The notes under the pieces are model-generated. The model searched no databases. It was not told where the DNA came from and saw only the letters and a program-made list of their open reading frames with translations. From contig WRLM01000003.1 in NCBI GenBank assembly GCA_009777615.1, positions 1-64,000 of the forward strand: DNA of 64,000 nt, read 5' to 3'. Positions 30,762 through 30,865 of this stretch are shown here, in pieces. The translations under genes were made by a program, and so were the position numbers. Origin of the DNA: Candidatus Methanoplasma cognatum. GTDB lineage: Archaea > Thermoplasmatota > Thermoplasmata > Methanomassiliicoccales > Methanomethylophilaceae. Every line of letters starts with the position of its first letter. The stretch's first letter is position 1.

Positions 30762-30865
30762 TATCCTGGAGCCGCCGATAAATGAACGATTGGGGCGTGA
30801 ACTAAAGCGCCCTCGGCGATCACGCCGATATGTGGTTTAAGGAGATAACCGGTGGCTCCAGGATA
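30762..30865 (+). ncRNA. Candidate cloverleaf-like RNA (or DNA hairpin) closed by a 16 bp stem
   Basis: TATCCTGGAGCCGCCG (30762-30777) pairs with CGGTGGCTCCAGGATA (30850-30865) over 16 bp with one G-U. The enclosed 72 bases hold three hairpins: GGGCGT 30793-30798 with GCGCCC 30807-30812; CGGCG 30814-30818 with CGCCG 30823-30827 (ATCA loop); GGTT 30834-30837 with AACC 30847-30850. The last loop shows AAGGAGAT, a ribosome-site sequence. TATA-like TTTAATTATTAT (30710-30720) would start RNA near 30740. It is not a tRNA, SRP, RNase P or known riboswitch as far as I can tell. Confidence 0.5.

Follow-up and report, generated by a model that had tools for sequence, protein, structure and literature searches.

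Organization of the locus

The window, that is, the whole 64,000-nt stretch of DNA that was analysed, contains two overlapping genes for paralogous serine recombinases, designated A and B, followed by a membrane protein gene, a small ORF and an intergenic region with two AT-rich elements, a large hairpin structure (the cloverleaf) and a short conserved site, the core (Table 1). The ORF listed for recombinase A starts at a TTG codon (27922), its likely start being the ATG at 27985. The recombinase pair that a previous, sequence-only reading of this DNA had placed near the cloverleaf is real, with Resolvase and Recombinase domains in both proteins. We take the membrane protein to resemble GPR1/FUN34/YaaH transporters. 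Gene order is the same in G016, a genome of the same genus (thermosome, recombinase pair, membrane protein, 34-aa ORF, AT element and trypsin-like gene), and this synteny rules out a mobile element inserted by the recombinases.

Table 1. Features of the recombinase locus, with coordinates in the window
Feature	Coordinates	Strand	Description
Serine recombinase A	27985..28752	+	Resolvase (PF00239) and Recombinase (PF07508) domains; 255 aa if translation begins at the likely ATG
Serine recombinase B	28749..29603	+	Paralogue of A with the same domains; its start overlaps the A stop codon (ATGA)
Membrane protein gene	29814..30380	+	188 aa, no Pfam match; syntenic neighbour
34-aa ORF	30478..30582	+	Adjoins the left AT-rich element; conserved in two same-genus relatives
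Left AT-rich element	30589..30716	.	Same two palindromic units as on the right, at offsets -478 and -398 relative to the core start
Spacer, left element to core	30717..31085	.	Contains the cloverleaf; unalignable with syntenic relatives; six frames without protein-family match
Cloverleaf	30762..30865	.	16-bp stem and inner hairpins; species-specific, non-conserved
Core site	31086..31111	+	TTGATACTCGG-GAGA-CCGTCGTTGAC; consensus TTGATATTCGG-NNNN-CCGTCGTTGAC; proposed recombination core
Right AT-rich element	31220..31347	.	Two palindromic units of TTAAG-N7-CTTAA type, beginning at offsets +153 and +233 relative to the core start; putative accessory sites
Trypsin-like protease gene	31388..32272	-	PF13365; convergent neighbour, syntenic in several relatives

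Between the thermosome gene and recombinase A (27640–27816) there is a gene remnant, presumably PIN-like, of which only the C-terminal third is left (49 % identical); a 150-aa version of this gene is present in G016 (L035:2770–3222). Within the spacer, positions 30979–31024 resemble the D- and anticodon arms of a tRNA (TTGTAGCTCAGT...CTTCAGAA), and neither ARAGORN nor Rfam calls anything there. Other RNA genes in the window are ordinary: an SRP RNA (54951–55257), the C/D-box RNA sR41 (16715–16767) and a tRNA-Ser (43607–43691).

The cloverleaf is a strong but non-conserved fold

The 104-base fold closed by a 16-bp stem with one G-U (30762–30777/30850–30865), as originally described, was confirmed, with an MFE of -52.7 kcal/mol and a z-score of -6.54 in the + strand (0 of 200 shuffles as good), and of -6.47 in the - strand. 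All three inner hairpins proposed for it appear in the MFE structure, but the third, of 4 bp, is missing from the centroid; it contains the SD-like string AAGGAGAT, and a reading of the window sequence found no ORF after it. In a scan of the 64-kb window no other stem reached 16 bp with one G-U or none, and this one is the longest of its kind there and also GC-rich; nevertheless, three relatives have nine stems of this class in 1.56 Mb of real genomic DNA, an expectation of about 0.4 per 64 kb, so one per window is not extraordinary. It is the GC content and the inner hairpins, and not stem length alone, that distinguish the cloverleaf.

A DNA search of 100 relatives yielded no homologues of the cloverleaf, the matches being chance-like pieces of 15–45 bases, and there is a single copy in its own genome. 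When its arms were sought in all fetched loci, the only match besides the window copies was one of 15 bases, situated in a locus fetched for that very piece. Phage, plasmid and viral collections contained nothing relevant. The place that the cloverleaf occupies is taken in syntenic relatives by unrelated DNA of other length, devoid of a comparable fold. Rfam assigned no family to it with gathering or with permissive thresholds (even E≤10), in agreement with the initial impression that it belongs to no known RNA class. Among specific candidates, ARAGORN finds no tRNA at the cloverleaf, RNase P RNA is found elsewhere in the genome, a decayed gene in the spacer was rejected for want of Pfam matches in six frames, and the cloverleaf arms were rejected as copies of the core, their similarity to this site being at chance level.

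These searches speak against the suggestion that the cloverleaf may be an RNA, and the covarying homologues that would have backed it did not appear. A species-specific structured ncRNA of about 100–300 bases, transcribed rightwards from a TATA-like sequence near 30710, is an unlikely alternative: it would account for the strong fold, for a GC-rich block within an AT-rich intergenic region and for the lack of protein-family matches in the six-frame search, but the cloverleaf folds equally well on both strands and has neither homologues nor syntenic counterparts. Likewise, the AT-rich sequence upstream, which had been taken as a TATA box, does exist, but belongs to the edge of the left AT-rich element, and this palindromic element is also found where there is no cloverleaf. 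The cloverleaf is thus most likely a lineage-specific filler in the spacer.

A conserved 26-bp core site lies downstream of the cloverleaf

Between the 34-aa ORF and the trypsin-like gene, little aligns between the window and G016 except the AT units and AACTTGATAYTCGGGAGACCGTCGTTGAC (window 31083–31111), a sequence found once per genome in 26 of the 101 genomes of the order (≤3 mismatches). A conserved long ncRNA spanning cloverleaf and core was considered and abandoned, since conservation is confined to the 26-bp core and the AT units. With its four central bases left free, the core was found in 60 of the 101 Methanomassiliicoccales genomes (≤3 mismatches), and reversed-pattern controls gave 0 matches across the 101 genomes. 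It is single-copy except in G025, G042 and G099, each with a second, weaker match. It was not detected at ≤3 mismatches in 41 of the 101 genomes, some of them incomplete, and G066 and G053 have it at four mismatches. The proposal of a recombination or replication site was hence right for the neighbourhood, but it had singled out the wrong element, since the conserved site is 220 bp downstream of the cloverleaf, next to the recombinase pair and enclosed by the two AT-rich elements that the same reading had pointed out.

Over 59 loci, the arms of the core were 0.68–1.0 identical by column and the centre was free at two to three positions (GAGA in 24 loci, GGAA in 11, GAGT and GGTA in 8 each, and others), with weak conservation in the flanks save for a short edge on the left. 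As inverted repeats, the arms agree at only 5 of 11 positions around the free centre of four. Exact arms matched 19 times in a collection of 84,980 species, 18 of them on contigs attributed to the order or the class. The remaining match is on a contig titled Candidatus Nealsonbacteria (L146), perhaps misbinned, where no recombinase was found in the 8000 of 10716 bp examined. In another locus (L045, from G065) CRISPR-like repeats, ATTTACATTCTAGTTTAGGTGGATTTCTAA, are situated beside the core.

The close relatives G040 and G055 are 93–99 % identical for about 1.2 kb to the left of the core, and 86–94 % further out; from the core rightwards identity falls to about 70 %, and then stays at 80–90 % for 6 kb. 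This step exactly at the core, a single case, is suggestive of exchange there.

AT-rich palindromes flank the core at preferred distances

The 99-bp elements reported on both sides of the cloverleaf are indeed two direct copies, 76–84 % alike and 631 bp apart, each with two units of TTAAG-N7-CTTAA type separated by 80 bp. The left element recurs once in G016. In family f1, no AT palindromes occur at -140 to +150 relative to the core, and those on the right side cluster at +152/153, 162, 169/170, 231–233, 242/243 and 250–253, about 10 bp apart. The Rayleigh score of this spacing was strong at periods of 10.0–10.25 and weak at 10.5; it is suggestive of helical phasing, with a result that depends on the period chosen and with related genomes that are not independent. 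Across whole closed genomes, most of the AT units were located close to the core. Several genera of f1 lack palindromes of this form, as do genomes outside this family. The pairs of AT-rich palindromes are proposed as accessory sites.

Seventeen loci from families f2, f3, f5 and f6 (L226, L101, L103–L106, L108–L110, L117–L119, L127–L130 and L227) contain, about 100–250 bp downstream of the core, a gene of DUF7557 type, whose product we assume to be ribbon-helix-helix-like; the Pfam match of the copy from G066 had an E-value of 9e-6. No such gene was found near the site in f1.

With the left AT palindromes on one side of the cloverleaf and the core on the other, and given that archaeal XerA also binds stem-looped DNA (PMC8371274), we considered whether the cloverleaf could be part of the recombination machinery of this species, e.g., as a cruciform or a protein-bound hairpin. 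This hardly seems likely at all: the corresponding spacers of relatives are unrelated and of other lengths, with left units at -195 to -687, and, as mentioned, its arms resemble the core only at chance level.

The core is situated at the replication terminus

In seven of eight closed genomes the core lies at 0.454–0.497 of the chromosome from the main orc1 gene, a placement nearly opposite orc1 with p of about 7e-7 under a uniform distribution. The outlier, G006, has its core at 0.313 of the chromosome from orc1; its cumulative GC-skew maximum is not at the midpoint either, but at 440–520 kb (half of the genome sampled), with the core at 466 kb. For G049 and G037 the peaks of GC skew are broad and match the position of the core only loosely. 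Within the window, both gene direction and GC skew converge near 31 kb, and the skew has another peak, just as high, near 45 kb. The core is, then, a site usually present in single copy at the replication terminus, a property that it shares with XerA/dif sites. That the locus is a replication origin is ruled out by the position of the main orc1 on the other side of the chromosome. A repeated 20-bp inverted repeat near orc1 in G006 (L225:3412–3514; TGCAAGTGTTACACTTGCA) perhaps represents origin boxes.

The recombinase pair is ancient and linked to the core

Of 60 good genomes, 55 have tandem recombinases, and so do 27 of 30 genera, with two matches per genome in almost every case. In a protein tree of 85 sequences from 44 genomes, all A proteins form one clade and all B proteins the other, each with 100/100 support; to judge from these sequences, A and B are two fully supported, ancient and vertically inherited clades. 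The pair is upstream of the core, in the same strand, in 47 of the 50 cases in which both share a contig, in 42 of them within 10 kb; the distance has a median of 3.6 kb and a minimum of 114 bp (50 contigs), with wide separations in G037 (168 kb), G065 (64 kb) and G025 (45 kb). They are on different contigs in seven genomes, and arranged otherwise in three.

Among the A and B sequences inspected by eye, RVST is present throughout, and most also have MDRIHR or something close to it; a motif pattern that was too strict flagged many of the sequences. We take the active sites as probably intact. Profile matches cover only the N-terminal half of large serine integrases, the closest profiles being CcrB and phrog_95, and the PDB matches include the TP901-1 integrase as well as gamma-delta resolvase (E 3e-10 to 6e-8). 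No Zn-ribbon domain was found in these proteins of 255–284 aa, which show only the Resolvase and Recombinase domains.

This likeness to the N-terminal halves of phage and SCC serine integrases is what a domesticated or decaying mobile element would show, with truncated integrases, an attachment site and no role in chromosome resolution. We regard this origin as decidedly unlikely, considering that both paralogues are retained across the order with their catalytic motifs visible, that there is mostly one site per genome, located at the terminus, that relatives keep synteny, and that the core was not found in viral contigs.

Sister families mostly have a single recombinase and often a symmetric site

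Families f25 and f27, from the same class, have mostly a single such recombinase. In about half of 20 loci (L269–L288), palindromic sites of the form TT..TTCGG-NNNN-CCGAA..AA were found about 0.8–1.4 kb downstream of the recombinase gene, such as TTTACGTTCGG-TAGA-CCGAATGTAAA in G253, TTGATACTCGG-TAGT-CCGAACATCAA in G203 and GTGCGGTTCGG-TAGA-CCGAAGCGTAC in G217 and G279; the background is 6 such palindromes in 1.59 Mb, for a search that was shaped on the core motif and not blind. One enzyme with a symmetric site, versus two enzymes with an asymmetric one, is what arm-wise binding predicts, and the single recombinase with its palindromic site may be the ancestral, one-enzyme form.

The order lacks a regular XerA

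Archaeal dif and XerA have been described (PMC2958812) and reviewed (PMC5357621, PMC8371274), and the reviews attribute chromosome dimer resolution to tyrosine Xer recombinases. The main text of a genome paper on three members of the order, which deals with origins and replication proteins, does not contain the words ‘recombinase’ or ‘Xer’ (PMC4153887). The archaeal XerA model (NF040815) scored over the cut-off in only 2 of 101 genomes; XerA-like tyrosine recombinases below the cut-off were present in 72 further genomes, with the very uneven strength that mobile integrases would probably give. The best match in the genome containing the window (G000) was below the cut-off (E 6.7e-7), and the closed genome G006 had none at E≤0.001. 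A regular, vertically inherited XerA thus appears to be missing in the order.

It is very unlikely that some tyrosine recombinase, so far unrecognised, uses the core as an ordinary dif of Xer type and that the serine pair is nearby for another reason. The core is like archaeal dif in being mostly single-copy, at the terminus and of similar size (about 28 bp in dif; PMC2958812), and many genomes have the sub-cut-off tyrosine recombinase matches mentioned above. Nevertheless, the dif arms of Thermococcales have few or no mismatches (PMC2958812), whereas those of the core pair poorly; besides XerA being irregular in the order and unmatched in G006, the enzymes linked to and co-inherited with the core are serine recombinases, and the one-recombinase relatives have a symmetric version of the site beside a serine recombinase gene.

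A proposed system for chromosome dimer resolution

Taken together, it is rather likely that this region, at the replication terminus, is a locus at which chromosome dimers are resolved, and that the hairpin in its spacer, the cloverleaf, is specific to the lineage and not conserved. The best reading, from computation, is that of a serine-recombinase counterpart of XerCD/dif serving for dimer resolution. A single operon would supply recombinases A and B, and each would bind a different arm (TTGATATTCGG or CCGTCGTTGAC) of the 26-bp core. In a dimer of sister chromosomes, both copies of the core would synapse, be cut at the variable centre (CGG-NNNN-CCG) and be exchanged by subunit rotation, producing two monomers. 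The AT-rich palindromes, at their preferred offsets, would act as accessory sites that allow resolution and not fusion; in four families, their binding partner may be the small DUF7557 protein, whose gene is located just downstream.

On balance we lean slightly towards the view that the whole order resolves dimers by serine recombinases, with the one-enzyme form in the sister families, and that duplication of a one-recombinase form with a palindromic site led to two paralogues with an asymmetric site, in convergence with XerCD. If true, another enzyme superfamily, which exchanges strands by a different mechanism, would have taken over a basic step of the cell cycle, and the core would mark the replication terminus in methanogens from gut and wetland. 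The system also offers a small testable series, from two enzymes with an asymmetric site to one enzyme with a symmetric site. Searches of an open-access library turned up no case of chromosome dimer resolution by serine recombinases.

Comparison with known systems

The cloverleaf shares with the structured RNAs in Rfam a strong local fold, a closing stem and inner hairpins, but differs in having no matching family and no homologues. The recombinases have the Resolvase–Recombinase domain order of large serine integrases and Ccr proteins (phiC31, TP901-1, CcrAB), and CcrA and CcrB are also paired; in contrast, the large enzymes have 440–650 aa, including Zn-ribbon and coiled-coil domains, versus only the first two domains in A and B, and they use attP and attB, whereas here there is one site per genome (with weak extras in three) and the system is vertically inherited.

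With the Tn3 and gamma-delta resolvases and their res sites, the system has in common a serine catalytic domain (PF00239) with the Ser and Arg motifs, a short core and, to one side of it, additional repeats at fixed spacing. Small serine resolvases, however, have about 180–200 aa and a small C-terminal HTH, whereas A and B are longer, with a PF07508 Recombinase domain; additionally, the system described here is chromosomal, located at the terminus and composed of two paralogues, and its putative accessory units are not copies of the core.

The XerCD/dif and archaeal XerA/dif systems differ in that their enzymes are tyrosine and not serine recombinases, and the order analysed here, with no regular XerA, shows AT palindromes at preferred distances from the core. 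Archaeal dif has 28 bp, with two 11-bp inverted arms and a 6-bp spacer, as opposed to a weak dyad with a free 4-bp centre. Xer versions with a single recombinase also exist (XerA, XerS and XerH). Like both XerCD/dif and XerA/dif, the system has at the replication terminus a single short site, mostly in one copy; like bacterial XerCD/dif, it has two paralogous recombinases, which here would act on one site.
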